Shown here: piece after piece, positions 9,162 through 27,987 of the stretch | How the letters are laid out: the number at the start of each line of letters is the position of its first letter | Position numbering within the stretch: the stretch's first letter is position 1 | Assembly: GCA_001603595.1 (NCBI GenBank) | Contig: LUZK01000062.1 | Location: 1-55,293 of the forward strand | Length of the DNA stretch: 55,293 nt | Reading direction: 5' to 3' | From: Bacteroidales bacterium Bact_19 | GTDB taxonomy: Bacteria > Bacteroidota > Bacteroidia > Bacteroidales > ML635J-15 | Program-made: the position numbers and the translations under genes | The notes under the pieces: model-generated | Database searches by the model: none | What the model was told of the DNA's origin: nothing | The model's input: only the letters and a program-made list of their open reading frames with translations

Positions 9162-9670
9162 AAGGAAAATTTTTTGATATATTGTTATTACTTGTATTGC
9201 TTGCTTTGATTTATTCCTGCAGAGGTGGTTATTCTTTTACCGGAGCAGATATTTCTGCTGATATAAAAACGATCAGCATAAGTTATTTTCCTAACCGAGC
9301 TACTCTTGTTCAACCAAATTTGAGTAATGTATTTACCGAAACTTTAAAAGACCGGTTTAATTCTCAAACCAATCTTGAGATGGTTCGTTCAGACGGAGAT
9401 TTAATGTTTGAGGGTGAAATTGTGAATTATACCGTTTCTGCTCAGGCTTTCACAGGAAATGAAACAGCTGCACTAAACAGGCTCACAATAACTGTGAAAG
9501 TAAAATTCACAAATACTAAAGAACCTCAGAAAAGTTTCGAAACAAATTTTACAAGATATGCCGATTTTGTCAGTACTGTTAGTTTAAGTGCTGTTGAGGA
9601 AGAATTAATCCGGCAAATTTGTGATGAACTTGTAACTGATATTTTTAATCGTGCCGTAGCTAATTGGTAA
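9158..9670 (+). CDS. lptE: LptE-like LPS-assembly lipoprotein
   Basis: A 170-residue lipoprotein with a hydrophobic leader and lipobox ending at Cys21 (LIYSC). The mature N-terminus GGYSFTGADIS and the following region resemble the Bacteroidota LptE family, which plugs the LptD barrel that inserts lipopolysaccharide into the outer membrane. The body has a predicted alpha/beta pattern and no further motifs. It is translationally coupled to the sigma-54 activator through an ATGA overlap, and the TPR gene follows 5 bases after the stop. The identification rests on N-terminal signature and gene order, since this family diverges fast. Confidence 0.75.
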   Translation: MKGKFFDILLLLVLLALIYSCRGGYSFTGADISADIKTISISYFPNRATLVQPNLSNVFTETLKDRFNSQTNLEMVRSDGDLMFEGEIVNYTVSAQAFTGNETAALNRLTITVKVKFTNTKEPQKSFETNFTRYADFVSTVSLSAVEEELIRQICDELVTDIFNRAVANW

Positions 9671-9675
9671 TAAGG

Positions 9676-10965
9676 ATGAATAAGGATACTTTTTATAAAT
9701 ATTCCGAAAACATTAACAGCCTTGATGAAAAGTCCTTACTCGATATCAAAGGTTTAATTGATGAGTATCCTTACTTTCAGGCTGCATGGATGCTTTATGT
9801 GAAAAATTTGAATATTATTAATGATGTCCGTTTTGAAAGTAAACTAAAACTTGCTGCTGTTCACATACCAGAACGTAAACTTCTCGCAAAAATAATTCTT
9901 GAAGACTACAATCCATTATTTTCTGAAATAAATACCACAACTGACAACATAACTCTTGAAGTCTCTGCTGAAAAAACACAGTCTGTTCATAATGATGTTA
10001 CTGGAGATATTCAAAATTCAGAGTCTGTTTCTGTAGAGTTTTTCCAGGATAAAAAGGAAAATGATCCTGCTGCCGATGTTTTAACGGCAGAGGATCTTAT
10101 TGACAGTGAACATATTTCGGAAATTGAAATTATTGATGTTGCGGATGTACAAACTGATATTCCTGGATTTGTTTTTGAAACTTTGCAAAATGAACCATCG
10201 GAAGATAATTCAGAAAATATCATTAGCAGGCAACCCGAAATAATAGTATCAAATAATCAAACTGTTGAAAACAAAGAAGAACAGCAGGTCTTAGTATTAA
10301 ACTCAGCAAATGAAATTGCCGAAGATTCAGACAAATTTAATCAAGAGAAGCTTGACGAAAAATCACAACGCGAAAAAGAATTACTCGAAATAATAAATAA
10401 AAGATTAAGTGAATTAGGGGTAAAACCTGTTGAACTAAAAAGTTCGGGAGATTCCGTTAGTGCGGATGCAGAAATTGAAAAAATTGAGGAATCAGAAAGA
10501 AAAACTGATGATGGAAACCTTGAATTAGATGCGATTATCGAAATTCCCGATAATCTTGAAATTCAAGAATCTTTCTCCCCTACGGAATATTATGACCCTG
10601 GTTTTGAATTTGCTGAAGAGATTAATTCAGAGGGAAATCCTAGTTTTAAACAAGAACCCAAGCACGAAAAAAAAATAATTGAAAAACCAGAAAAAAATAA
10701 ATTAATTGATAAATTTTTGGAGAAAAATCCACGAATAATTCCGGATAAAAATTTTGTTCCCCAAAATCCTGTAAATGTTGAAGCTGTGCTAACGGAGAGT
10801 GATGAACTTTTTAGTGAAACTCTTGCAAAAATTTACCTTAAGCAAGGGCATTACGAAAAAGCTTTATTAAGTTACGAAAAATTGTGTTTGAAATATCCCG
10901 AAAAAAGTATTTACTTTGCAAGTCAAATTGAAAAAATTAAAGAATTAATTAAAAATAAAAAGTAG
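9676..10965 (+). CDS. Acidic protein with C-terminal TPR, function unknown
   Basis: A 429-residue product with no signal peptide. The N-terminal 80 residues form a conserved-looking helical domain (aromatic and Leu-rich). The middle, about residues 90-340, is Glu/Asp/Ser/Asn-rich and probably disordered. The last 60 residues contain a TPR-like unit (LAKIYLKQGHYEKALLSYEK). The start is the ATG at 9676; an in-frame TTG at 9664 overlaps lptE and is less likely. Position between lptE and secG suggests an envelope-biogenesis link, but that is inference from context only. Confidence 0.75.
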   Translation: MNKDTFYKYSENINSLDEKSLLDIKGLIDEYPYFQAAWMLYVKNLNIINDVRFESKLKLAAVHIPERKLLAKIILEDYNPLFSEINTTTDNITLEVSAEKTQSVHNDVTGDIQNSESVSVEFFQDKKENDPAADVLTAEDLIDSEHISEIEIIDVADVQTDIPGFVFETLQNEPSEDNSENIISRQPEIIVSNNQTVENKEEQQVLVLNSANEIAEDSDKFNQEKLDEKSQREKELLEIINKRLSELGVKPVELKSSGDSVSADAEIEKIEESERKTDDGNLELDAIIEIPDNLEIQESFSPTEYYDPGFEFAEEINSEGNPSFKQEPKHEKKIIEKPEKNKLIDKFLEKNPRIIPDKNFVPQNPVNVEAVLTESDELFSETLAKIYLKQGHYEKALLSYEKLCLKYPEKSIYFASQIEKIKELIKNKK

Positions 10966-15031: not shown

Positions 15032-16156
15032 TTATCCCACGTTACTCAACATTTTTAGAGTATCCATGTTGAGAATTTCGATGGTTTTATTGTTTATAGC
15101 GATAATGTTATCTTTTTTGAGGTCAGAGAGCACTCTAACGAGATTTTCAGTAGCCAGACCGGAAAATTCTGCAAGGTCTTTTCTGGTGATAATCGGATTG
15201 ATAGTATTTGATTCAAAGACTTTTTCGGCAAGGTAAATTAAGGCATCACAAACTCGACCGATGGCTTGTTTATTTGCAAGGCATCCGATTTTATCGTAAA
15301 TATTTTGCAAAGAGTTACTGTAAAGTTTCATAACTTCAATTGCAAAATCATTGTTTTTCCGGAGAATTTGATCAAATTTCTCCCTTTCCACAAGACAAAT
15401 TTTTGATTGCAGCAAAGCCTGAGCACTGAAATGATAATAATTCTCTCCGTACAAACTTGATAATCCTAATATTGCATAAGGCTTAGTAATTTTAAATACA
15501 TGATTTTTATAATGTGGACTTTCAACGAAAGCTTTTACCAGCCCATCTTTTAAAATCATTATGAATGTTGCAAAAGAACCTTGCTTACAAATATTTTCTC
15601 CCTTTTTAAATTCAATTTGAACTTTTGTAATTTCTTCAATTTCTTCGTCGTTGAGTTTAAGCCTTTTCAGGTAATTCAGAAAGTTCTGTTCGTTGTCGTT
15701 AATTTTTTGTTTATTGTGAATGCTGTAGCTATATAATTCTTTTAATTTCCGGTATGACAGATATTGATTAAGTTTTTCGGTAATGGTTTTAAATAGTCTC
15801 AATTCTTCGTTTAGAAAAATCCCTTTTTCTGCTCTTACACTTTTTATATAGCATAAAGTTATTTCTCCTGAAACCAGACCTTCCACAACTAAAGGATGAC
15901 TTAATTTTAGTTCGGTTTTTTTGAAATTTTCAGATTCTACAATTATATCGTTAAGCTGAATTTTTACTTTACAAATCTCAGAATATCTCCAACCGGAGGG
16001 AATGATGTTGCAAAGTTGTTGAAAAATATTTTCAATGTCAGAATTGAAATCACGAAGAATTTCATCAACACGGTAAATACACTCAAGTTCCTTTTTCCTC
16101 TCGTTAAGGTTTTTAAGAACATCATCAATATCTTCGTTGAAATAAGTGTTGTCCAT
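15032..16156 (-). CDS. Crp/Fnr-type regulator with N-terminal GAF-like sensor domain
   Basis: A 374-residue transcription regulator of larger than usual size (about 225 for Crp). The N-terminal part (about residues 15-145) contains IIPSGWRYSEICKVKI and later an LNEELRLFKTI stretch, the pattern of a GAF-like domain known from sensor kinases. A cyclic-nucleotide-type beta-roll follows (about 175-285; GENICKQGSFATFIMILKDG), then a winged helix (ITRKDLAEFSGLATENLVRVL). The ATG at 16156 is used because the -7 box lies between it and the longer TTG start at 16222. There are no cysteine clusters for an Fe-S centre. It lies divergent to gdhA, so it may regulate it. Confidence 0.8.
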   Translation of the reverse strand: MDNTYFNEDIDDVLKNLNERKKELECIYRVDEILRDFNSDIENIFQQLCNIIPSGWRYSEICKVKIQLNDIIVESENFKKTELKLSHPLVVEGLVSGEITLCYIKSVRAEKGIFLNEELRLFKTITEKLNQYLSYRKLKELYSYSIHNKQKINDNEQNFLNYLKRLKLNDEEIEEITKVQIEFKKGENICKQGSFATFIMILKDGLVKAFVESPHYKNHVFKITKPYAILGLSSLYGENYYHFSAQALLQSKICLVEREKFDQILRKNNDFAIEVMKLYSNSLQNIYDKIGCLANKQAIGRVCDALIYLAEKVFESNTINPIITRKDLAEFSGLATENLVRVLSDLKKDNIIAINNKTIEILNMDTLKMLSNVG

Positions 16157-16173
16157 TTTAAAAAATATTGTTG

Positions 16174-16203
16174 CAAAGATATTAAAATAAAAAACAATAC
16201 AAA
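16174..16203 (-). promoter_or_regulatory. -33/-7 promoter of the Crp-type regulator
   Basis: On the minus strand TTTG (16200-16203), an 18-base spacer and TATCTTTG (16174-16181), close to the Bacteroidota consensus TTTG-N19-TAnnTTTG. It lies 17 bases before the ATG. Confidence 0.65.
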
Positions 16204-16278
16204 AGTCATTGATAAAAATCAAGAGCTAAAATAAAAAAATAAATTAGTAAAAGTTTGAAATTTATATTCAATAAATGA

Positions 16279-16339: not shown

Positions 16340-17674
16340 ATGAACGTAGAAAAAATCATGAACGACCTGGAAAAAAAACATCCGGGTGAAGTAGAGTATC
16401 TACAAGCTGTTAGAGAAGTTTTGGAATCAATTGAAGAAGTTTACAACGAAAATCCTCAATTCGAAAAGTTGGGAATTATTGAGAGAATTGTTGAGCCTGA
16501 CAGAGTTTTAACTTTCAAAGTACCATGGGTTGACGATCATGGAAAAGTTCACGTTAATATAGGTTATCGTGTACAATTTAATAATGCAATCGGACCATAC
16601 AAAGGCGGTTTGAGATTCCACCCGAGTGTTAACCTTTCAATTTTGAAATTCTTAGGTTTCGAACAAATCTTTAAAAATTCTCTTACTACATTACCTATGG
16701 GTGGTGGTAAAGGTGGTTCAGATTTCGATCCAAAAGGTAAATCCGATGCTGAAATCATGCGTTTCTGCCAGAGCTTTATGTTAGAATTGTGGAAGATAAT
16801 AGGTCCTGAAACTGATGTTCCTGCAGGTGATATTGGCGTTGGTGGAAGAGAAATTGGATACTTGTATGGCATGTATAAAAAATTAGCTCAAGAACATACC
16901 GGAGTATTAACTGGAAAAGGATTGAAATGGGGTGGTTCATTGATTCGTCCGGAAGCTACCGGTTTTGGTTGTGTTTATTTTGCTCAGGAAATGTTAAAAA
17001 CCCGTGAGGAATCATTCGAAGGCAAAACCGTTGTTGTTTCTGGTTTTGGTAATGTTGCATGGGGCGCTGTAACAAAAGTGACTCAACTTGGTGGTAAAGT
17101 TGTTGCAATTAGTGGTCCTGATGGTTATGTTTATGATAAAGACGGAATCTCAGGCGAAAAAATCGACTACATGCTTCACTTAAGAGCAACTAACGAAGAC
17201 ATTGTAAAACCTTATGCATTGAAATTTGGTGCTGAATTCCACGCAGGTAAAAAACCCTGGGAAGTTAAATGTGATGTTGCTTTACCATGTGCTACACAGA
17301 ACGAATTAAATAAAGAAGATGCTGAAATGTTAATCAAAAATGGTTGCATTTGCATTTGCGAAGGTGCTAACATGCCATGTACTCCAGAAGCAGTAGAAGT
17401 TATTCTCGAACATAAATTATTATTTGCTCCGGGTAAAGCTGCTAATGCCGGTGGTGTTGCAACTTCAGGTCTTGAAATGTCTCAAAACTCAATGAAATTA
17501 TCTTGGTCTAGAGAAGAGGTTGACCGCAGATTACATGAAATTATGTGCAACATTCACGAAGCTTGTGTTAAATACGGGAAAGACGAAACAGGTTACGTAA
17601 ACTATGTTAAAGGTGCTAACATTGCAGGTTTCCTCAAAGTTGCTGAAGCAATGGTAGAACAAGGTATTATCTAA
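16340..17674 (+). CDS. gdhA: NADP(H)-type glutamate dehydrogenase
   Basis: A 444-residue hexameric enzyme interconverting glutamate and 2-oxoglutarate plus ammonia; the length matches the bacterial small hexameric (NADP-type) class. Seen residues: Lys124 in PMGGGKGG (substrate binding), Asp164 in PAGDIGVGG (catalytic) and the Rossmann loop SGFGNVAWG around residue 235. It probably assimilates ammonia or feeds amino-acid degradation. It has its own promoter and a strong terminator, so it is monocistronic. The coenzyme preference (NADP versus NAD) is inferred from size class, not from a decisive residue. Confidence 0.95.
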   Translation: MNVEKIMNDLEKKHPGEVEYLQAVREVLESIEEVYNENPQFEKLGIIERIVEPDRVLTFKVPWVDDHGKVHVNIGYRVQFNNAIGPYKGGLRFHPSVNLSILKFLGFEQIFKNSLTTLPMGGGKGGSDFDPKGKSDAEIMRFCQSFMLELWKIIGPETDVPAGDIGVGGREIGYLYGMYKKLAQEHTGVLTGKGLKWGGSLIRPEATGFGCVYFAQEMLKTREESFEGKTVVVSGFGNVAWGAVTKVTQLGGKVVAISGPDGYVYDKDGISGEKIDYMLHLRATNEDIVKPYALKFGAEFHAGKKPWEVKCDVALPCATQNELNKEDAEMLIKNGCICICEGANMPCTPEAVEVILEHKLLFAPGKAANAGGVATSGLEMSQNSMKLSWSREEVDRRLHEIMCNIHEACVKYGKDETGYVNYVKGANIAGFLKVAEAMVEQGII

Positions 17675-17698
17675 TAACAATATTTCCCTTAATCATTA

Positions 17699-17730
17699 AA
17701 TCCCCGCTTTTTTTAGTGGGGATTTTTTTG
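17699..17730 (+). terminator. Terminator after gdhA
   Basis: TCCCCGCT pairs with AGTGGGGA (one G-T), with a 6-base loop and a T run of seven. It is a strong hairpin. The following 200 bases to the next gene contain no other structure apart from a promoter box. Confidence 0.9.
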
Positions 17731-17944: not shown

Positions 17945-20938
17945 ATGAGCGAAAATACGAATAACCCCTTTGAACTTCTGAAAATTGATGAAAATGAATT
18001 GCAGGATACTGAATTCGAGAAGTTGATGACTAAAAGAATATTAAAGGTGCTTTTAATATGCAATAATTATGATCATTTCATGCTCGAAGAAGATGGTAGG
18101 ATTGACGAACAGATTTTTAAAGAATACATGACTCTGGGCTTGAGATATCCACCAATGTTTATACGAGTTGATTCTGCTGAGGCTGCTTTTCATAGACTAA
18201 AAGCTAAAGATATTGACCTTGTCATTACAATGCTCAATATCCCAAATGCTAATGCTTTTGAATTGTCAAAAAAAATAAAGTCTAAATACAAAAAAATTCC
18301 CATAGTTATTCTAACCCCATTCTCCAGGGAAATTTCACAGCGAATCGAACGCGAAGATTTGAGTGCTATAGATTACGTTTTTTGCTGGCTTGGAAATCCT
18401 GATATCATGCTTGCCATAATAAAGCTGATAGAAGACAAAATGAATGCTAATCATGATATTCTGGAAATGGGAGTACAAACTGTGATTTTAGTCGAAGACA
18501 GCATAAGATACTATTCCAGCATTTTGCCTACTTTGTATAAAATATTTTTCATCCAGTCTCAAAGAGCAGCTATCGAAGGAGCTAATGAATTCCAGCAAAA
18601 CCTCAGAATGCGAGGACGTCCTAAAATTCTTCTTGCAACAAACTATAATCAAGCTGTATCGCTTTATAATAAATATAAGGAAAATGTTCTTGGTGTTATT
18701 TCTGATGTAAGATATAAAATCAATCGTCACACCGATAAACATGCAGGAGTAAAGTTATGCAATTATCTAAAAGAACAAGATGTTCACTTGCCTTTATTAT
18801 TGCTTTCGTCGGAAGGAGAAAACAAAGAACTAGCTTCCGAAATCGGAGTAGATTTTCTTGGAAAATATACAAAAAATTTCTCCTACGAACTCAGAAATTT
18901 TATAATTAAAAATTTCCATCTCGGAAGTTTTCATTTTTATTGTCCTGTAAAACAAAAAGTAATTGGAACTGCATCAAGTTTAAAGTCTTTTCAGGAACTT
19001 ATACTCAAAATTTCACCCGAATGTTTGGAATATCACGTCAAACGTAATCATATAACTAAGTGGTTTAATTCACGAAGTCTTTTTTCTCTTGCCCGAAAAT
19101 TTAAGTATCTTACAGTAGATGATTTTAATACCATTGAAGATATTCGTCAGTTTATTTATATGGCGATATCTCAATACCGTTTAAATTCAGGACGAGGCAT
19201 AATAACGAAGTTTGAACAAAATACTTTCGACAATTATTCAATTTTCACTCGTATAGGGGATGGATATATTGGTGGCAAGGCAAGGGGTTTAGCTTTTTCG
19301 GATTTATTGATAAAAAAATATCGTTTACGAAAGAAATATCCCGGCATTACAATTACTATACCTCGAACTACAATTCTTTGTACAGATATTTTCGATGAAT
19401 TTATGGAATCAAATAATCTGTACGAAGTCGGGTTATCGAATTTATCTGATGAGGAAATTTTAAGAAGGTTTGTCGAAGTTCGATTGCCAAACAGAATTTT
19501 CTCGAGTTTGTACTCATTTATCAGTTTGACGAACAATCCAATCGCAGTAAGGTCTTCGAGTCGGTTGGAAGATTCTCATTATCAGCCGTTTGCCGGTGTG
19601 TATAGTACTTACATGGTGCCAAATGCCGGAGATGACAAACATCTTACAATAAAAATACTTACCGAGGCAATTAAGAGTGTATATGCCTCGGTATTCTTTA
19701 AAGATTCCAAAGCATATATGACAGCAACTTCAAACGTAATTGATGAAGAAAAAATGGGAGTTGTATTGCAGGATGTTTGCGGAACTGCTTACGGAGATAG
19801 ATTTTATCCCACTTTTTCGGGCGTTGCCCGGTCAATAAATTTTTATCCCATTGCTCCCGAAAAAGCAGAAGAAGGAATTGTAAATGTTGCTTTAGGACTT
19901 GGAAAACATATAGTTGATGGAGAGAAATCCTTACGTTTTTCACCACGGCATCCCGAAAGAATAATACAGCTTTCAAGTCCCGAAATGGCTATGAGAGATA
20001 CTCAAAAAACTTTTTATGCATTAAAACTCGACCCACATTTATTCACTCCTTCAATTTTTGAAAATATTAATATGATTAAACTACCCATTGAGGAGGCTCA
20101 TAAAGATGGAACTTTAAAATATATCGGCTCTACTTACGATTTTCAGAATAATATTATCAAAGATAATGTTAATTATGATGGAATTAAACTGGTAACTTTT
20201 GCAAAGATTCTTAAGTACAATACTTTTCCATTGTGTGACATTCTTAACGAATTTATGGAAATCGGTAAGAAAGAAATGAATAATCATATTGAAATAGAAT
20301 TTGCAGTTAATTTTCCAAAAAATCCAAACGAAGATATTGTTTTTAGTTTGTTGCAAATTCGTCCTATTATCGAAACTGACCAGAATGTTACGGTAGATAT
20401 TGATAAAGTGAATTTATCCAGAACCATTTTATTTTCTGAATCTGTTTTAGGAAATGGAATTTATGGCGGAATCAGAGATATAATTTATATAAAGCCTGAA
20501 ACATTTAATTCTCTGAATAATCCAAAAATGGTTGATATAATAGATGGTTTAAACCGCAAGTTTATCAAAGAAGAAAAAAATTATATTTTAATTGGTCCCG
20601 GTAGGTGGGGCTCATCTGACTATGCTCTTGGTATTCCGGTGAAGTGGTCTAATATTTCAATGGCTCGCGTAATTGTAGAATCTGGCTTAGCTAATTATAG
20701 AATTGACCCCAGTCAGGGAACTCATTTTTTCCACAATTTAACTTCATTCAGGGTGGCATACTTTACAATAAATCCTTACATAAACGATGGTTACTATGAT
20801 GTGGATTTTTTAAATTCAATTCCGGCAGTTTACGAAGACGAATTTATGCGGCATGTTAAATTTAAAGAGGAACTTTTAATAGAAGTTGATGGTAGATTAA
20901 GCAGAGGAATTGTGCATAAACCCAAAAATAATAATTAA
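17945..20938 (+). CDS. Receiver-domain protein fused to a PEP-synthase-like ATP-grasp domain
   Basis: A 997-residue cytoplasmic protein. Residues about 30-160 form a receiver-like domain that lacks the phospho-acceptor Asp (DLVITMLNIPN instead of D at the usual site). Residues about 178-325 form a second receiver-like domain with VLVED and VISDVRY, where an Asp is retained. From about 430 to 790 comes an ATP-grasp domain of the PEP synthase/pyruvate phosphate dikinase type: GGKARGL (443-449), AVRSSSRLEDS, and a later ALGLGKHIVDGEKS. The C-terminal 170 residues contain a distinct GPGRWGSS segment (about 884). The phosphohistidine swivel domain (usual TxGGxxxHxA) and the PEP-binding barrel are both absent, so it is not a classic dikinase. 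It probably phosphorylates or senses something in a signalling role; the substrate is unknown. A response regulator follows 22 bases later. Confidence 0.8.
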   Translation: MSENTNNPFELLKIDENELQDTEFEKLMTKRILKVLLICNNYDHFMLEEDGRIDEQIFKEYMTLGLRYPPMFIRVDSAEAAFHRLKAKDIDLVITMLNIPNANAFELSKKIKSKYKKIPIVILTPFSREISQRIEREDLSAIDYVFCWLGNPDIMLAIIKLIEDKMNANHDILEMGVQTVILVEDSIRYYSSILPTLYKIFFIQSQRAAIEGANEFQQNLRMRGRPKILLATNYNQAVSLYNKYKENVLGVISDVRYKINRHTDKHAGVKLCNYLKEQDVHLPLLLLSSEGENKELASEIGVDFLGKYTKNFSYELRNFIIKNFHLGSFHFYCPVKQKVIGTASSLKSFQELILKISPECLEYHVKRNHITKWFNSRSLFSLARKFKYLTVDDFNTIEDIRQFIYMAISQYRLNSGRGIITKFEQNTFDNYSIFTRIGDGYIGGKARGLAFSDLLIKKYRLRKKYPGITITIPRTTILCTDIFDEFMESNNLYEVGLSNLSDEEILRRFVEVRLPNRIFSSLYSFISLTNNPIAVRSSSRLEDSHYQPFAGVYSTYMVPNAGDDKHLTIKILTEAIKSVYASVFFKDSKAYMTATSNVIDEEKMGVVLQDVCGTAYGDRFYPTFSGVARSINFYPIAPEKAEEGIVNVALGLGKHIVDGEKSLRFSPRHPERIIQLSSPEMAMRDTQKTFYALKLDPHLFTPSIFENINMIKLPIEEAHKDGTLKYIGSTYDFQNNIIKDNVNYDGIKLVTFAKILKYNTFPLCDILNEFMEIGKKEMNNHIEIEFAVNFPKNPNEDIVFSLLQIRPIIETDQNVTVDIDKVNLSRTILFSESVLGNGIYGGIRDIIYIKPETFNSLNNPKMVDIIDGLNRKFIKEEKNYILIGPGRWGSSDYALGIPVKWSNISMARVIVESGLANYRIDPSQGTHFFHNLTSFRVAYFTINPYINDGYYDVDFLNSIPAVYEDEFMRHVKFKEELLIEVDGRLSRGIVHKPKNNN

Positions 20939-20960: not shown

Positions 20961-22121
20961 ATGGGGAAAATATTGATTATAGATGACGAAAGGAGCATCA
21001 GAAATACTTTGAAAGATATACTGAGTTTTGAAAAACATCATGTTGATACAGCCGAGGATGGAATAATCGGATTAAAAATGATTGAAGAAAACGAGTATGA
21101 TGTTATCTTTTGTGATATAAAGATGCCTCAAATGGACGGGATTGAAGTGTTGGAGAAAATTATTGAAACACATCCTGAAATTCCCGTGGTAATGATTTCG
21201 GGTCATGGTAATATTGATACTGCTGTTGAAGCCATTAAAAAAGGAGCTTTTGATTATATTGCAAAGCCATTGGATTTAAACAGAATTATGGTTACCTTGC
21301 GGAATGCTTTGGATAAAAATAATCTTGTCGTTCAGACAAAAACTCTGAAAAGCAAGGTTGATGTTCGTTATCAAATGATTGGAGAATCACCTGCAATAAA
21401 AAAGGTTAAAGAAATAATCGAAAAGGTTGCACCTACTGATGCCAGAGTTTTAATAACGGGTGAAAACGGCACGGGAAAAGAGGTTGTTGCCCGATGGATT
21501 CACGAAAAATCAAATCGATCAAAAGCTCCTTTTGTTGAAGTGAATTGTGCAGCAATTCCTTCCGAACTTATCGAAAGCGAACTTTTCGGGCATGAAAAAG
21601 GTGCATTTACTTCGGCAATAAAACAACGAAAGGGCAAATTTGAACAAGCAGAAGGTGGAACAATTTTTCTCGACGAAATAGGGGATATGAGCCTATCCGC
21701 TCAAGCTAAAGTATTGAGAGTGCTTCAGGAAAATAAGATATCGCGTGTCGGTAGCGACAAAGATATAAGCGTAAATGTTCGTGTAATTGCTGCTACTAAT
21801 AAAAACTTACAGGAAGAAATAAAAAAGGGAAATTTCCGCGAGGATTTATATCATCGTTTAAGCGTAATTTTAATAAATGTTCCCCCGCTTAATGAACGTC
21901 TCGAAGATATTCCTTTGCTGGTAGAGCATTTCATTGAACTAACCTGCAACGAACAAAATGTTGCAAAGAAAAAAATTACCGACGAAGCAATTGAAGAATT
22001 AAAGAAAATTAAATGGACCGGAAATATCCGTGAGCTTAGAAATGTTATCGAACGCCTTGTAATATTGTGCGGACCTGTTATTAATGCCGAAGATGTAAAA
22101 ATTTATGCCAGACCTTTATAA
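20961..22121 (+). CDS. NtrC-type response regulator without DNA-binding domain
   Basis: A 386-residue two-domain protein: receiver (residues 1-120, acidic pocket Asp8/Asp9, phospho-acceptor Asp52 in FCDIKMP, and a conserved Lys in IAKPL) plus a sigma-54 AAA+ domain (Walker A GENGTGKE near 167, sigma-54 loop GAFTSA, Walker B IFLDEI). The chain ends in ...[14 protein letters not shown] immediately after the AAA+ domain, so the Fis-type helix-turn-helix is missing. The start is the ATG at 20961; the longer frame from 20910 overlaps the previous gene. The aspartase gene begins inside its last codons, so the short C-terminus is not caused by a visible frameshift. It may act from solution on RpoN, as in FlgR-like activators that lack a DNA-binding domain. 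Confidence 0.9.
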
Positions 22122-23559
22122 CAACACACGAAAAGAAAAAGATTATTTAGGAGAACTTGATATTCCTGCTGATGCTCTTTATGGCATAAACGCTCTTAGA
22201 GCATACCGAAATTTTGAAAATTCGGAAAAATTCGATATAGATTGGTATAAAGCAGTTGGAACAGTAAAGTTAGCATGTTATCAAACCTACAGAAAGTTAA
22301 AGAAAAATGTACTTGCAAATATTCCTTCCGAAATAATAAAAATTGATTTTTTCGCTGATGAAGTAATTGATGCCCTGGAAAAAGCTGCTGGCGAAGTTTC
22401 CGAAGGAAAACATTTTGAGCATTTTATTGTTCCTGCAATTCAAGGAGGGGCAGGGACAAGTATAAACATGAATGTAAATGAGATTATTGCTAATCGTGGA
22501 CTACAAATTTTAGGATATAAACCCGGAGATTATTCCAAAATTGATCCGTTTATACATGCAAATGTTTTTCAATCCACCAATGATGTTATTCCAACCTCGT
22601 TAAAAGTTGCGGTTTTGCAGCTGCTTAATTCTCTTGAAGAAGAAATTAATAAAACACGTTTTTTAGCCGAAGAACTCGAACGAAAATATAGAAATGTACT
22701 GAGAATGGGATATACTCAGTTGCAGGCAGCTGTGCCTTCGAGCTATGGCAAACTTTTCAGTACCTATAACGATGCCTTGTCGCGAGACTGGTGGCGAGTC
22801 TCGAAATGTTTCGAACGAATTAAAACTGTTAATTTAGGTGGAGGAGCTATTGGTACCGGCATTGCAATACCTAGATATTTTATTATGGAGGTTTCCAAAA
22901 ACCTTCAGCACATTACAGGATTGCCAATTACACGAAGTGAAAATATGTGTGATACAACCTCTAATCAAGATAGTTATGTTGAGATTCATGCAACCTTAAA
23001 ATCCCATGCTGTAAATCTTGAAAAGCAAGCATCCGATATTAGACTCTTAGCTTCCGATATTTCGAGGGAAGCCTTGAAAATACAACCTCGACAGGTGGGG
23101 AGCTCTATTATGCCGGGGAAAATAAATCCTGTAATTTCCGAGTTTATAATTAGTATTGCTCATAAAGTATATGCAAATGATATTCTGATTTCCAATCTTT
23201 GCGGACAATCTTGCCTCGAACTCAATGCTTACATGCCTTCAATAGGAAAATCACTTATTGAGAGTTTAAAATTGTTGATAGCAGCTAACCGTAGTTATCG
23301 CCAATTTTTGCTTTCGGGTATTGAAATTGACAAAAATCTTTCTTTAAACTCAGTTTTGTCGAATCCCTCCATCACCGTTGTTTTAGTTCCAATTTTAGGT
23401 TACAGAAAAGCCACGGAATTTGCTATCATTATGAAAAATTATGGGATTGATATTGTTGAATTGAATAAAAAGTTTAATTTTGTTGATGAAAAATTATTGG
23501 AAAGTTTATTAAATCCCGAAAATCTATTGAAAGAAGGTTTTTCGTTTAAAGAAGGATGA
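22105..23559 (+). CDS. aspA: Aspartate ammonia-lyase (aspartase/fumarase superfamily)
   Basis: A 484-residue enzyme of the aspartase/fumarase fold that would convert aspartate to fumarate and ammonia. The family signature GSSIMPGKINP (about residues 331-341) is intact, including the catalytic serine. The N-terminus EKDYLGELDIPADALYGIN is typical of aspartases. Other visible signature stretches are GGAGTSINMN and HANVFQSTNDV. The ATG at 22105 overlaps the response regulator by 17 bases. The cotH-like gene starts 1 base after its stop. Fumarase C is a possible alternative, but the size and N-terminus favour aspartase. Its position within a regulatory/CotH-VTC run is odd. Confidence 0.85.
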   Translation: MPDLYNNTRKEKDYLGELDIPADALYGINALRAYRNFENSEKFDIDWYKAVGTVKLACYQTYRKLKKNVLANIPSEIIKIDFFADEVIDALEKAAGEVSEGKHFEHFIVPAIQGGAGTSINMNVNEIIANRGLQILGYKPGDYSKIDPFIHANVFQSTNDVIPTSLKVAVLQLLNSLEEEINKTRFLAEELERKYRNVLRMGYTQLQAAVPSSYGKLFSTYNDALSRDWWRVSKCFERIKTVNLGGGAIGTGIAIPRYFIMEVSKNLQHITGLPITRSENMCDTTSNQDSYVEIHATLKSHAVNLEKQASDIRLLASDISREALKIQPRQVGSSIMPGKINPVISEFIISIAHKVYANDILISNLCGQSCLELNAYMPSIGKSLIESLKLLIAANRSYRQFLLSGIEIDKNLSLNSVLSNPSITVVLVPILGYRKATEFAIIMKNYGIDIVELNKKFNFVDEKLLESLLNPENLLKEGFSFKEG

Positions 23560-23560
23560 T

Positions 23561-26500
23561 ATGAGAATAAATGAAAAAGACAGATTTGATAAGATAAAAC
23601 AATTTCTTAAGAGGACCCGAGAGTTTCAGATATTATTTTTTTTGTTTGCATTGTTAGGGATACTGATATATATTTATTCCAATAATATTGATTCTGATAG
23701 CGAATTTTTATCTTGTGATTTTGAAAATTTTGATGTTTCAAACGAAAAGATAGATTTTCGAACAAATAAAATTCTAAATACATTAACAATTAAAAATGCA
23801 TCTGTAACAGATGAGGAGGCTTTTTCAGGGAAGCATTCCATCAAAATAATTAACAGTGAGTTTGTTAATCTCTATGCAATTAGAGGTGTGCATCCTAATG
23901 AATTATATTCTGTAACAATATTGCGAAAAGGAGGTTCTGCAGGATTGGTTGTACAGGAAGATAAGGCGGAAAATCCTGAACTTTACAAATTTTCCAATCA
24001 TATTTTAGATACACTCCCCAATGGATGGGGAAGGATTTCTGTGCAAATTCGTATTCCAAATAATTTTAAAGGGAATGTTTTAAAAATTTATATATGGAAT
24101 CCTAAAAAAGAACCGGGATATTTTGATGATTTTAGTATAAAAAAGATTAAAAAAAATAGAATGAGTTTTCCTGAGTTTAAGGATATTGAACCATTGTATA
24201 TTTTTATCGAAGATAAAGAATTTAATAAACTAAGGAAAATAAGAGAAAAAGCTTTTGAAAGAGGAATTTTGATTACAGAAGAGGGTAGCTTTGTTAGAGC
24301 ACTTATTGTATATGAAGGGCATTTTATGCGTGCTAAGATAAGGTTTAAAGGCGATTGGCTCGACCACCTTGAAGGAGATAAATGGTCGTTTCGAATTAAA
24401 CTTATTGAGGATGCATGGAAAGGAATGACTACTTTTTCTATTCAATCGCCTGATAGCAGATCTTATTTACTTGAATGGTTATTTCATAAAATTGCCCTTG
24501 ACAAAGGAATTCTCACTACAAATTACGGTTTTGTTCCGGTTTATATAAATAATAGTCCTTATGGAATTTATGTTTACGAGGAGCATTTTGATAAAATTTT
24601 ATTAGAAAGTAAAAAAAGAAGAGAAGCTCCTATTTTGTCATTAAATGAAGAAAGAATGTGGAATAGAAGAATATTGGATTTAAATAGCCAAGAAGAATTT
24701 TTATTAGCATCTGCATATCCCGAAGCATTCAAAATGAGCACGACTATGGGAGATGAAGGATTATATAATTGTTTTATAATTGGACAGAATTTGCTAGAAT
24801 CATTCAAACAAGGTGAATTAACTGCCTCTGAGGTTTTTGATATCCCAAAAACGGCAAAGTATTTTGCTTACATGTCTAAATTTGGAGCTTACCACGGAGC
24901 TATTTGGCATAATATAAGGTTTTATTATAACCCGGTAATTTCCAAACTTGAACCGATTGCTTATGATTGTTATTCAAATTGGGGTATTAATAATTGGGGA
25001 TTAAAAGAGATTTTAGGATATTATCAAAAAAATGATAATTTTACTTTTATCTCTGGTTTATATTTAGGCTTTTTTGAAGATGATAATTTTAGAAAACAAT
25101 ATTATAAAGAATTACAAAAACTCCAAGGAAATATTATTCAAGAATATTATAAAAAGTACGAAAGCGAACTTACATATTATGAAAATTTAATTAAAAGAGA
25201 ATATCTTGGATATGTTTTTGACAGAGATCATTTAATTAAACATTCTTTTGTTATTGATTCGATTTTTTCTAAGTTGAGCAATGATATTTCGGATAAAAAT
25301 TATATTGATTTTATAAAAAACAAAAAACTGGCTGTAAAGAGTAAGTTTAACAGTGATATAAAAAAAGAATATTTTTCAGATTATGTGAGGTTTTATAAAA
25401 ATTCAGATAATGAATTAGGCGTAATAGTAAATTATCATTTTAATATTGATATTATTGGTTTTGGTGATGCCGATAAAATAAGAAAATCCACAAAAATTGA
25501 ATTGAAAAATAAGTTAAATACTAATTTCTATAAAAATACAATTAAATTGGACGAAATTCTAAATAAAAACTATGAATATGTTTATTTTACCACTCCTGAA
25601 TATCCCGGAATGGTTTACAGATCTAAAATAATTCCATGGCCAATGCCAGTAGCTTTTAGTCCAAGAAAACAATTTGAAGAAACTGCGATTATTTTAAATC
25701 AGTATTTTAAACATACAAATAATGAAATCAGAATTTTTGGGAAGAAGAAGTTTGACAAAAATATTTATATACCTGATGGTTATAAAGTTTTCATAGAGCC
25801 AGGTACAGAGATTGATCTGATAAACAATGCCGCGTTTGTTTCTAATTCTCCGATTTTTGCTGAAGGAACTGAAGAAAAACCCATAAAAATACATTCATCA
25901 GACGGAACCGGAAATGGCTTCACTGTTTTACAGGCCAAAGACAAATCTATTTTTAAAAATGGTATTTTTGAAAATTTAAATACATTGAATTATAAGGGTT
26001 GGCAATTAACGGGAGCAGTTACTTTTTATGAATCTGATGTAGAGTTTTATAATTGTAACTTCAGAAATAATCATTGCGAAGACTTTTTGAACACCATAAG
26101 AAGTCAATTCTTACTCAACAATTGCATAATGGAGAATACTTTTTCTGATGCGTTTGATTCTGATTTTTGTCGTGGTAAAGTAGTTGGCTGTAAATTTATT
26201 AATTCTGGAAATGATGCAATAGATTTTTCTACAAGTAATGTAGAGATTTTGAATTGTAAAATTATAAAGGCCGGCGATAAAGGAATAAGTATGGGAGAAA
26301 AATCTGTTGCAGCTGTTGTAAATACTCAAATAGAACAGGTTAATATTGGAATTGCTTCAAAAGACCTTTCGGAAATTAAAGCAAGAGACATAAAAATAAA
26401 GAATAGTAATTATGGATTTGTGCTTTTACAGAAAAAACCGGAATTCGGTCCCGCAAAAATAATTGCTGAGAAAATTGTGATGCAAAAAGTTAAAACAGAA

Positions 26501-26587
26501 CACAAGGTTGAAGAAAGCTCTGTTTTAGAATTGAACGAAAAAAAAATAGAAGGAAAAAATAAGAATTTAAAAATGTATTTTTACTAA
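23561..26587 (+). CDS. CotH-kinase-type membrane protein with C-terminal beta-helix
   Basis: A 1008-residue protein with one N-terminal membrane helix (about residues 28-45), so the bulk is probably outside the cytoplasm. A carbohydrate-binding-like beta-sandwich may occupy 60-200. The CotH domain spans about 205-480, recognisable by MRAKIRFKGDWLDH, SPYGIYVYEEHFD and the active-site-like AYDCYSNWG (Asp near 469). From about 730 to 990 there are short repeated strands with Asn ladders (NCNFRNNH, NNCIMENTF, GCKFINSGNDAIDF), a right-handed parallel beta-helix. CotH proteins are atypical kinases in the bacterial families studied. It is in an operon with DUF4956 and VTC genes, an association known from other bacteria; the substrate here is unknown. 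Confidence 0.82.
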   Translation: MRINEKDRFDKIKQFLKRTREFQILFFLFALLGILIYIYSNNIDSDSEFLSCDFENFDVSNEKIDFRTNKILNTLTIKNASVTDEEAFSGKHSIKIINSEFVNLYAIRGVHPNELYSVTILRKGGSAGLVVQEDKAENPELYKFSNHILDTLPNGWGRISVQIRIPNNFKGNVLKIYIWNPKKEPGYFDDFSIKKIKKNRMSFPEFKDIEPLYIFIEDKEFNKLRKIREKAFERGILITEEGSFVRALIVYEGHFMRAKIRFKGDWLDHLEGDKWSFRIKLIEDAWKGMTTFSIQSPDSRSYLLEWLFHKIALDKGILTTNYGFVPVYINNSPYGIYVYEEHFDKILLESKKRREAPILSLNEERMWNRRILDLNSQEEFLLASAYPEAFKMSTTMGDEGLYNCFIIGQNLLESFKQGELTASEVFDIPKTAKYFAYMSKFGAYHGAIWHNIRFYYNPVISKLEPIAYDCYSNWGINNWGLKEILGYYQKNDNFTFISGLYLGFFEDDNFRKQYYKELQKLQGNIIQEYYKKYESELTYYENLIKREYLGYVFDRDHLIKHSFVIDSIFSKLSNDISDKNYIDFIKNKKLAVKSKFNSDIKKEYFSDYVRFYKNSDNELGVIVNYHFNIDIIGFGDADKIRKSTKIELKNKLNTNFYKNTIKLDEILNKNYEYVYFTTPEYPGMVYRSKIIPWPMPVAFSPRKQFEETAIILNQYFKHTNNEIRIFGKKKFDKNIYIPDGYKVFIEPGTEIDLINNAAFVSNSPIFAEGTEEKPIKIHSSDGTGNGFTVLQAKDKSIFKNGIFENLNTLNYKGWQLTGAVTFYESDVEFYNCNFRNNHCEDFLNTIRSQFLLNNCIMENTFSDAFDSDFCRGKVVGCKFINSGNDAIDFSTSNVEILNCKIIKAGDKGISMGEKSVAAVVNTQIEQVNIGIASKDLSEIKARDIKIKNSNYGFVLLQKKPEFGPAKIIAEKIVMQKVKTEHKVEESSVLELNEKKIEGKNKNLKMYFY

Positions 26588-26602
26588 TTAAAAATTTTTA
26601 TT

Positions 26603-27274
26603 ATGAATAGTTACGAAAAAATTTTACAGTATTTTAATTTTACTCCAAAGGAAATAGACGTTAATATGTTTATTGTTAACGCGGCCTTAGTGATTGTAAT
26701 GGCTTTAATTCTTGAAATGACCTACAGGCGTTGTGCTCAAAGTTTGTCGAACAAGAGTCAGTTTGCGTATAATTTTGTTATGGTTTCGTTAATAACAATG
26801 TTGATAATCACATTGGTAGGCAGCTCTGTTGCTTTGTCGTTGGGTTTGGTAGGTGCTTTGTCAATAGTTCGTTACAGGGCAGCGATAAAGGAGCCTGAAG
26901 AATTAACATATTTGTTTCTTACAATAGGTTTAGGTTTGGGAATGGGAGCTAATCAGCCTATAGTAACCATAATAGCATTTTTGATAATTGTATCTATAAT
27001 TTGGATAAGGTATTTTATCCGTCCCGTAAATAAGTTATTGGCTTATAATATGTTGGTGAGCCTTTCAAAACCAAAACCGGGTGACATGGAAAAAGTCATC
27101 GGAATTATAAATTTATATTTTCCAAAAGCAAATCTACGCCGGTTCGATGAAAATACAGAAATTTTGGAACTTGCATTTAGAGTAAAGGTTAAAAATCTTG
27201 AATTGCTCACAAACTGTAAAAACGAGATTTTGAAAATAGAAAATAGCTCTGTCTCATTTGTTGACATTAAATAA
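26603..27274 (+). CDS. DUF4956 membrane protein
   Basis: A 223-residue protein with an N-terminal helix and three or four membrane segments (about 22-40, 55-78, 100-120 and 122-140). The signature SLGLVGALSIVRYRAAIKEP identifies DUF4956, a family that frequently neighbours VTC polyphosphate-polymerase genes. The C-terminal 80 residues are a soluble alpha/beta domain. The stop codon overlaps the VTC start by one base (TAATG), implying coupled translation. It may form the membrane channel or anchor for the neighbouring VTC protein; that role is inferred from analogy with the membrane domain of yeast VTC. Confidence 0.85.
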   Translation: MNSYEKILQYFNFTPKEIDVNMFIVNAALVIVMALILEMTYRRCAQSLSNKSQFAYNFVMVSLITMLIITLVGSSVALSLGLVGALSIVRYRAAIKEPEELTYLFLTIGLGLGMGANQPIVTIIAFLIIVSIIWIRYFIRPVNKLLAYNMLVSLSKPKPGDMEKVIGIINLYFPKANLRRFDENTEILELAFRVKVKNLELLTNCKNEILKIENSSVSFVDIK

Positions 27275-27987
27275 TGGAAATAAGCAAAAATACTGAATAC
27301 ACCCTATTAGAGGATTATCGCTACGAAAGAAAATATCGTCCCGAAAGGCTCAATTATATCGAGGTTAAAATGATAGTACTTGGTAGTGATGCTTTTTTCA
27401 GAAAGATTTATAAACCTCGTACCGTAAATAATATATACCTGGATAGTCCCGAATTAGAATGTTTTTATGCAAATAGTATGGGACATTCAGAAAGAAACAA
27501 ATTTCGAATCAGATGGTACGGAAATACCATTGGAAAAATTTCCGGAGCTGTATTTGAAATAAAACAAAAAGAAGCTTATAGAGGTACAAAACAATCATAT
27601 TTTTTACCTGAATTTGAGTTAGATAAGGATTTTAATGCAAAATTTTGTCTTAATCTTATAAAATCTGTAAGCATTCCTGAAAATGTTCTGGAGCAAATTT
27701 CAGGATTTGAACCGGTAATGTTGAATTCATACAATCGCGAATATTTCAGAGATATCACCGGAAACTACAGGTTAACAATAGATTCAAGAATAAGATATTA
27801 TAAAATAAATGCAGGATTTAACCACTATAAGGAATTTATCGAAGACCCAGGTATAGTTGTCGAACTGAAATATAGCGATAAATATAATGATTATGCTACG
27901 CATATAGCAAATACATTACCATTTAGACTCACTCGTAACTCAAAGTATGTTGATGGTATGCTTATGCTTTACGATTTGAATTTGTAA
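27274..27987 (+). CDS. VTC-domain polyphosphate polymerase-like protein
   Basis: A 237-residue protein consisting of a single VTC tunnel domain. The conserved basic/acidic residues of the polyphosphate-synthesising tunnel are visible: ERKY (18-21), FRIRWYG, FEIKQK, YNREYFRD, RLTIDSRI and VVELKY near the C-terminus. The predicted activity is growth of a polyphosphate chain from ATP. There is no membrane segment; the DUF4956 partner, with which it shares a TAATG overlap, would supply membrane attachment. It is last of the six-gene run. An imperfect hairpin at 28016-28038 follows but lacks a T tail. Confidence 0.85.
   Translation: MEISKNTEYTLLEDYRYERKYRPERLNYIEVKMIVLGSDAFFRKIYKPRTVNNIYLDSPELECFYANSMGHSERNKFRIRWYGNTIGKISGAVFEIKQKEAYRGTKQSYFLPEFELDKDFNAKFCLNLIKSVSIPENVLEQISGFEPVMLNSYNREYFRDITGNYRLTIDSRIRYYKINAGFNHYKEFIEDPGIVVELKYSDKYNDYATHIANTLPFRLTRNSKYVDGMLMLYDLNL

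Follow-up and report, generated by a model that had tools for sequence, protein, structure and literature searches.

The best-described relatives of the protein considered here are phosphotransfer enzymes that combine an ATP-grasp domain with a swivelling phosphohistidine domain. Rifampin phosphotransferase RPH-Lm (PDB 5fbs, 5fbu and 5hv1) has a PPDK_N-type ATP-grasp domain and a C-terminal swivelling domain; its published description places the latter, a phosphohistidine domain, at residues 767-865 with His825 (PMC4844700). In phosphoenolpyruvate (PEP) synthase and pyruvate phosphate dikinase (PPDK), the ATP-grasp domain is followed directly by the swivel, and a PEP/pyruvate barrel is also present. 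A different precedent concerns glutamate dehydrogenase (GDH), which is controlled in actinobacteria by the FHA protein GarA. The 55,293-nucleotide stretch analyzed here, contig LUZK01000062.1 of Bacteroidales bacterium Bact_19 (hereafter the window), encodes at 17945..20938 (+) a 997-aa receiver-ATP-grasp-swivel protein. It shares the ATP-grasp domain of RPH-Lm and probably a swivelling domain; unlike RPH-Lm, it lacks a rifampin-binding domain, carries N-terminal receivers, and ends in a domain that is undetectable by sequence. As in PEP synthase and PPDK, a swivel-like domain directly follows the ATP-grasp domain; the barrel is missing, so that no such dikinase reaction is expected. GarA and OdhI, FHA-domain proteins that are not known to have a domain in common with the 997-aa protein, are dedicated regulators of GDH at the protein level, a task that we propose for the present protein as well. 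Genes of this family pair with GDH genes in the Bacteroidota in an isoform-specific manner. As a serious but tentative reading, the protein may be a dedicated receiver-gated, ATP-driven His-phosphotransferase that controls the GDH encoded beside it.

Architecture and conserved residues

The open reading frame, supported by its ATG start, Pfam and homologue matches, encodes two receivers followed by a helical DUF5752-like piece, the ATP-grasp domain and, last, the C-terminal domain. The AlphaFold2 model of the whole protein, with 68 family members as input, has a pLDDT of 86 and a pTM of 0.79. Three motifs singled out in an earlier note on this DNA were all located in the translation: GGKARGL (residues 443-449), VRSSSRLEDS (535-544) and GPGRWGSS (884-891). 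Protein search matched 44 of 61 relatives; G011 matched only another receiver, and the remaining matches of those 44 are the 997-aa protein or its long paralogue. Among the NCBIfam matches listed (25 of 50), all are confined to the ATP-grasp or receiver parts; the rifampin phosphotransferase model, NF041857, scores 18.9 bits where its cut-off is 999, and covers residues 503-659 only. The reported absence of a PEP/pyruvate-binding barrel was confirmed in that Pfam gives no match to it in the 997-aa protein, and the chain ends after the swivel-like domain. The protein is of the ATP-grasp kind and is no pyruvate dikinase; the true PPDK of the same genome is encoded elsewhere, on C55. A database protein of the same family, WP_041525632.1, is called "PEP/pyruvate-binding domain-containing protein" by NCBI, an annotation that names the ATP-grasp domain only.

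Conservation was assessed in two sets. The main family alignment started from 107 short and 44 long proteins, the long forms carrying an extra N-terminal domain that is also found in the CRP-type regulator beside the GDH of the window (BLASTP E 1e-11, 26%). Reduction at 80% identity left 58 and 27, of which 48 and 20 (68 in total) were used. The second set, an even phylum sample, comprises 41 receiver-containing forms, 11 receiverless forms and 21 rows from a distant sister group; a 343-aa piece of a broken gene (G288:C3) was excluded. This sample and the linkage counts cover the Bacteroidota, and our claims are made for that phylum.

The ATP-grasp assignment, first read from motifs, is borne out by PPDK_N (PF01326), which matches residues 441-817 (19265..20395, +) with an E of 2.8e-33 in the whole protein. 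The catalytic residues expected from PPDK are Lys, Arg, Glu, Gln and Arg. K445, R536, E542, E783, E785 and Q804 are invariant in 68/68 family proteins, and position 806 is R in the 48 short forms and K in the 20 long forms. The same residues are kept in 41/41 receiver-containing and 11/11 receiverless forms of the phylum sample, where 806 is K once. Even the distant sister group keeps K445, R536 and E542 (21/21), as well as E785, Q804 and R806 (20/20 readable rows), with E783 replaced by D in 20/20 readable rows. On this conservation, a degenerate, inactive ATP-grasp domain is rejected. The modeled fold matches those of RPH-Lm, PEP synthase and PPDK (for 5hv1, Z 26.0, 284 aligned, rmsd 2.7).

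The C-terminal GPGRWGSS domain (residues ~820-994; 20402..20926, +) is swivelling beta/beta/alpha-like. Folded alone (46 sequences), it gave a pLDDT of 90.9, and the top 11 of 50 VIA-align rows for this model are phosphohistidine-type domains with Z of 5.5-6.7. The best, with a Z of 6.7 and an rmsd of 3.4 over 110 aligned residues, is the 755-867 segment of RPH-Lm; eight of the others are PPDK entries (373-511), one is an Enzyme I, and one is the C-terminal domain of a pyruvate kinase (3t05), which we take to be of the same kind. The rows that come next, TRiC/GroEL, aconitase and MccF-like domains, presumably share the swivelling beta/beta/alpha fold class. Alignments of the whole model extend beyond the ATP-grasp domain into the His domains of PEP synthase 2ols (8-467, 368 aligned, rmsd 4.6) and of PPDK 1kbl (7-511, 355 aligned, rmsd 5.1).

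Phosphohistidine domains usually carry a GG.(T/S).H-type motif. The C-terminal domain is without it and has a conserved histidine of its own, His927 (codon 20723-20725, +), which is kept in 67/68 family proteins, 41/41 receiver-containing forms, 11/11 receiverless forms and 19/19 readable distant forms, two of the 21 distant rows being gapped at this position. In the model, His927 sits at the start of the helix following the fifth strand (907-913), which, going by the order of elements, would be the place of the carrier His in PPDK. The domain is probably a diverged swivelling phosphohistidine carrier domain, the model and conservation lending moderate support both to the fold and to His927 as the carrier. 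The earlier note had seen no phosphohistidine domain in the protein, which is probably wrong, since the C-terminal fold best matches such domains and has its own conserved His.

Two receiver-like domains at the N-terminus, the first lacking its acceptor Asp, had also been described, and Pfam, fold and conservation agree. Receiver-fold domain 1 (residues ~30-172; 18032..18460, +) has a Response_reg match at residues 75-146 (E 2.3e-11); alignment to the usual receiver pattern places Met96 at the acceptor position, which is M in 64/68 proteins and Asp in 0/68. Receiver domain 2 (residues ~176-329; 18470..18931, +) is intact. Its Pfam score is poor (E 0.028 when scanned as a piece), and its model folds as a receiver, with a VIA-align Z of 14.0 to 8fk2 (rmsd 2.4, 118 aligned). 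E184, D254 (codon 18704-18706), S288 and K307 are kept in 68/68 relatives and in 41/41 forms of the phylum sample, and D185 in 63/68. The acid pocket, acceptor Asp, Thr/Ser and Lys of two-component receivers are found together in receiver 2 only. The ATP-grasp residues and a single receiver are preserved throughout the family, which supports the earlier description of the protein as a candidate signaling phosphotransferase. The helical DUF5752-like linker (residues ~330-425; 18932..19219, +) matches PF19027 weakly as a piece (E 6.3e-4, below the cut-off, which the long paralogues exceed), and its H364 is kept in 66/68.

Linkage to glutamate dehydrogenase isoforms

A GDH of 444 aa, the presumed partner, is encoded 270 bp upstream (16340..17674, +; NCBIfam NF010633 above cut-off). 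When the window genes were searched by tblastn against the first relatives' loci, GDH was repeatedly found beside the family gene. The even Bacteroidota sample has the family in 42/247 genomes; at most three candidates per genome were scored, so that copies per genome are lower bounds. Of 74 family genes or gene pieces, 50 have a GDH gene no more than 500 bp away, and another 9 stand second in a GDH-family-family run; the 74 count the two pieces of the broken gene G288:C3 separately and leave the window's own gene aside. The 15 with neither arrangement consist of six unlinked short-type genes, three unlinked distant-group genes, one gene with the GDH 2.4 kb away, two genes at the end of a contig, two that stand further along a run, and one far piece of the broken gene. 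GDH is a direct neighbour in 34 of the 42 family-bearing genomes. The adjacent GDH genes number 67, as one family gene can have two: on the same strand, 48 lie upstream and 16 downstream, and 3 are on the opposite strand. Given a few PF00208 members per genome, adjacency by chance would, at a rough guess, be about 1% or less. The genomic link between the family and GDH is strong, and the partner is very likely GDH.

Closer to the window, GDH lies within 700 bp of 17/79 short and 5/43 long forms, and within 4.5 kb of 8 more short and 6 more long forms, many of these loci having incomplete flanks. In the window's genus, 7 of the 8 genomes with the short form hold a GDH at least 75% identical to that of the window, and 3 of the 18 without it do so, a comparison uncorrected for kinship. 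Parabacteroides distasonis WP_041525632.1, 50.9% identical, is divergent from the adjoining gdhA; a RapZ homologue, a nucleotidyltransferase, an endo/exonuclease-phosphatase protein and the family member lie between two GDH genes in this species. GDH is a divergent neighbour in 2/3 records from a plasmid collection, with none within 6 kb in Prevotella. One record filed as a plasmid (L301, NZ_OY725790.1) contains ruvC together with a gene for valine-tRNA ligase, and probably represents part of a chromosome.

The pairing is specific to the copy. In seven genomes with two copies, 14/14 family proteins have their closest cross-genome relative beside the same GDH type (A, 446-477 aa; B, 453-482 aa), and in the same 14/14 that relative is closer than the sister copy in the same genome. 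This test took genomes in which both copies have an upstream GDH; an eighth, G115, was left out. In the window's class, 17/21 pairs of short forms involve GDH cluster 1 and 5/6 pairs of long forms involve cluster 3, the clusters being defined at thresholds of our choosing. The window's genome holds both pairs, one on C133 with the 997-aa protein and the other on C112, made up of a 1156-aa long form and a 451-aa GDH in divergent orientation. Patristic distances of family and GDH proteins correlate (Mantel r 0.55, reached in 0/2000 permutations); species kinship inflates this correlation, and does not inflate the within-genome test. Isoform-specific pairing with GDH in the Bacteroidota is a firm new fact, and is more readily explained by a protein that serves a single GDH isoform than by a regulator of nitrogen metabolism at large.

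The receiverless forms (570-605 aa) and the distant form of ~1060 aa occur beside another GDH, mostly of 428 aa, whose best scores, below cut-offs, are to archaeal GDH models. A C-terminal nucleotidyltransferase domain (NTP_transf_2) is present in 4/6 distant forms scanned and absent in two of 776-778 aa. In many loci, a long form immediately precedes the short one. A scan of genome contigs confirmed 557 stretches, and the record titles of the best 80 name Bacteroidota groups, with two from "Chlorobiota".

The ~1060-aa sister form, seen at L235:5824-9015 and in relatives in L232-L249, has PPDK_N, then a GPGRWGS/GTHFF domain, then, in the majority of scanned cases, the nucleotidyltransferase, and often stands last in a run of 428-aa GDH, receiverless form and ~1060-aa form. 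It may be a further covalent-modification enzyme, acting on a different GDH isoform.

A candidate switch for glutamate dehydrogenase and its alternatives

In the mechanism that we propose, ATP bound by the ATP-grasp domain would phosphorylate His927 of the C-terminal domain with release of AMP, a reaction known from PEP synthase and described for rifampin phosphotransferase (PMC4844700). The swivelling domain would then carry the phosphate group to a separate acceptor molecule, most likely its cognate GDH, whose activity would thereby be switched, the transfer being gated by the intact receiver (D254), itself set by a histidine kinase. An acceptor in trans is suggested by the lack of any recognized substrate domain in the chain itself, most clearly in the receiverless forms, and GDH is the most likely acceptor because it is the only conserved partner found. 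We infer the phosphorylation of GDH, the direction of its effect and the signal. A more elaborate version, in which phosphorylation of the dedicated GDH by the receiver-gated ATP-grasp/phosphohistidine-swivel protein is reversible and the nucleotidyltransferase of the sister forms serves a different GDH isoform, is speculative and on balance unlikely.

The receiver might obtain its phosphate from a PAS histidine kinase, whose gene (L150:9673-11112) overlaps the 3' terminus of a family gene. In L151, a gene from the same cluster (9322-10752) lies ~20 bp behind a family gene, the domain scan having been made on the L150 gene only. In both loci, a small response-regulator-like gene comes next, and then a second GDH-family pair.

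Several results weigh against this proposal. The swivel Z of 6.7 is modest, within the range reachable by chance or by unrelated folds, and Foldseek on the lone C-terminal model gave nothing significant (best E 0.12; PPDK at rank 5, E 0.21). PF00391 has no Pfam match in the whole protein or the C-terminal piece, hhalign of the C-terminal domain against PPDK-type and then PPDK, PEP synthase, Enzyme I and PtsP profiles gave no signal, and a PDB profile search with the C-terminal alignment returned a single, unrelated match (E 1.3). The sequence search for a His domain that the earlier note had named as decisive thus found none, and fold comparison points the opposite way; the C-terminal segment is unlike PEP synthase, as had been claimed, by sequence and resembles a swivelling phosphohistidine domain by fold. 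The GDH link is weaker nearer the window, with GDH within 3 kb in 12/45 wide loci, and it is this figure, not the phylum-wide 50/74, that is fairly set against the PPDK control, where GDH occurs in 0/20 loci of 6.5-10 kb from the window's relatives. GDH-type (PF00208) proteins occur in 241/247 sampled genomes, and the family in 42/247. In G115, no GDH is seen upstream of the type-A-clade copy, which has just a downstream one that it shares with its sister. A terminator-like hairpin (17698..17725, +; 11 pairs and a T tail) between GDH and the 997-aa gene makes separate transcripts likely in the window, where three such sites were found and 2.6 are expected from shuffles. Comparison of 56 linked with 20 unlinked GDHs revealed no phosphate-accepting residue specific to the linked ones; only P39, P62 and E217 pass the cut (at least 90% in linked, below 50% in unlinked).

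That no acceptor residue stands out in GDH would also be expected of a non-covalent regulator, for which GarA provides the model: the protein would bind its own GDH and control it allosterically, with ATP or a futile cycle of His phosphorylation only setting its conformation. Copy-specific pairing requires binding only. The ATP-grasp residues and His927 are kept down to core identities of 15-29%, which argues for chemistry rather than mere binding, and we consider this alternative unlikely. Somewhat less likely still is a small-molecule kinase, in which the swivel would phosphorylate a glutamate- or 2-oxoglutarate-linked metabolite and the GDH link would reflect the pathway; ATP-grasp plus swivel is indeed the chemistry of PEP synthase, PPDK and rifampin phosphotransferase. 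The receiverless forms leave little room for a substrate beyond the ATP-grasp and C-terminal domains, and one copy per GDH isoform would be odd for a pathway enzyme.

An internal phosphorelay, with phospho-His927 feeding the D254 receiver of the same chain and the output lying elsewhere, is improbable. The intact receiver is at hand in the same chain, but the receiverless forms retain the ATP-grasp residues and His927 (11/11), and receivers are usually phosphorylated by histidine kinases, one of which adjoins the family gene in L150. Phosphotransfer to the sigma-54 response regulator at 20961..22121 (+; identified by Pfam), which the earlier note considered the obvious partner and whose ATG is 22 bp from the stop of the 997-aa protein, is rejected on linkage, since an NtrC-like stretch of at least 250 aa was found in 0/92 loci of relatives that extend 1.3 kb or more downstream (a few species present twice, from two collections) and the conserved neighbour is the GDH upstream.

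Post-translational control of GDH is hinted at by the title of a 1996 paper cited in PMC4539542, and reversible inactivation of the Bacteroides fragilis GDH was reportedly described in 1987. If the 997-aa protein switches GDH, it would provide a named candidate gene for such control. It would also be a new kind of protein kinase, in which PEP-synthase chemistry is aimed at a protein, and a metabolic dikinase engine turned into a protein kinase would make a new class of enzyme switch. GDH is a main entry of ammonia into Bacteroides (PMC12000641 and PMC4539542). A literature search, whose coverage left out most subscription papers, found no work linking the family to GDH, and the text of PMC10197588 was negative.

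Neighbouring genes in the window

The genes that flank the GDH-family pair are of several kinds. A CRP/FNR-type regulator, assigned by Pfam and BLASTP, is divergent from GDH (15032..16222, -); its real start may be an ATG 22 codons further in, and a regulator of this type is also found beside GDH in L036. Downstream, the sigma-54 response regulator lies outside the conserved unit and is followed by an aspartate ammonia-lyase-like protein (22105-23559, +; below NCBIfam cut-offs), a gene found near the family in 0/92 relatives' loci. A CotH-kinase and beta-helix protein (23561-27987, +; Pfam) comes next, with two small genes after it, in a cluster that looks unrelated.

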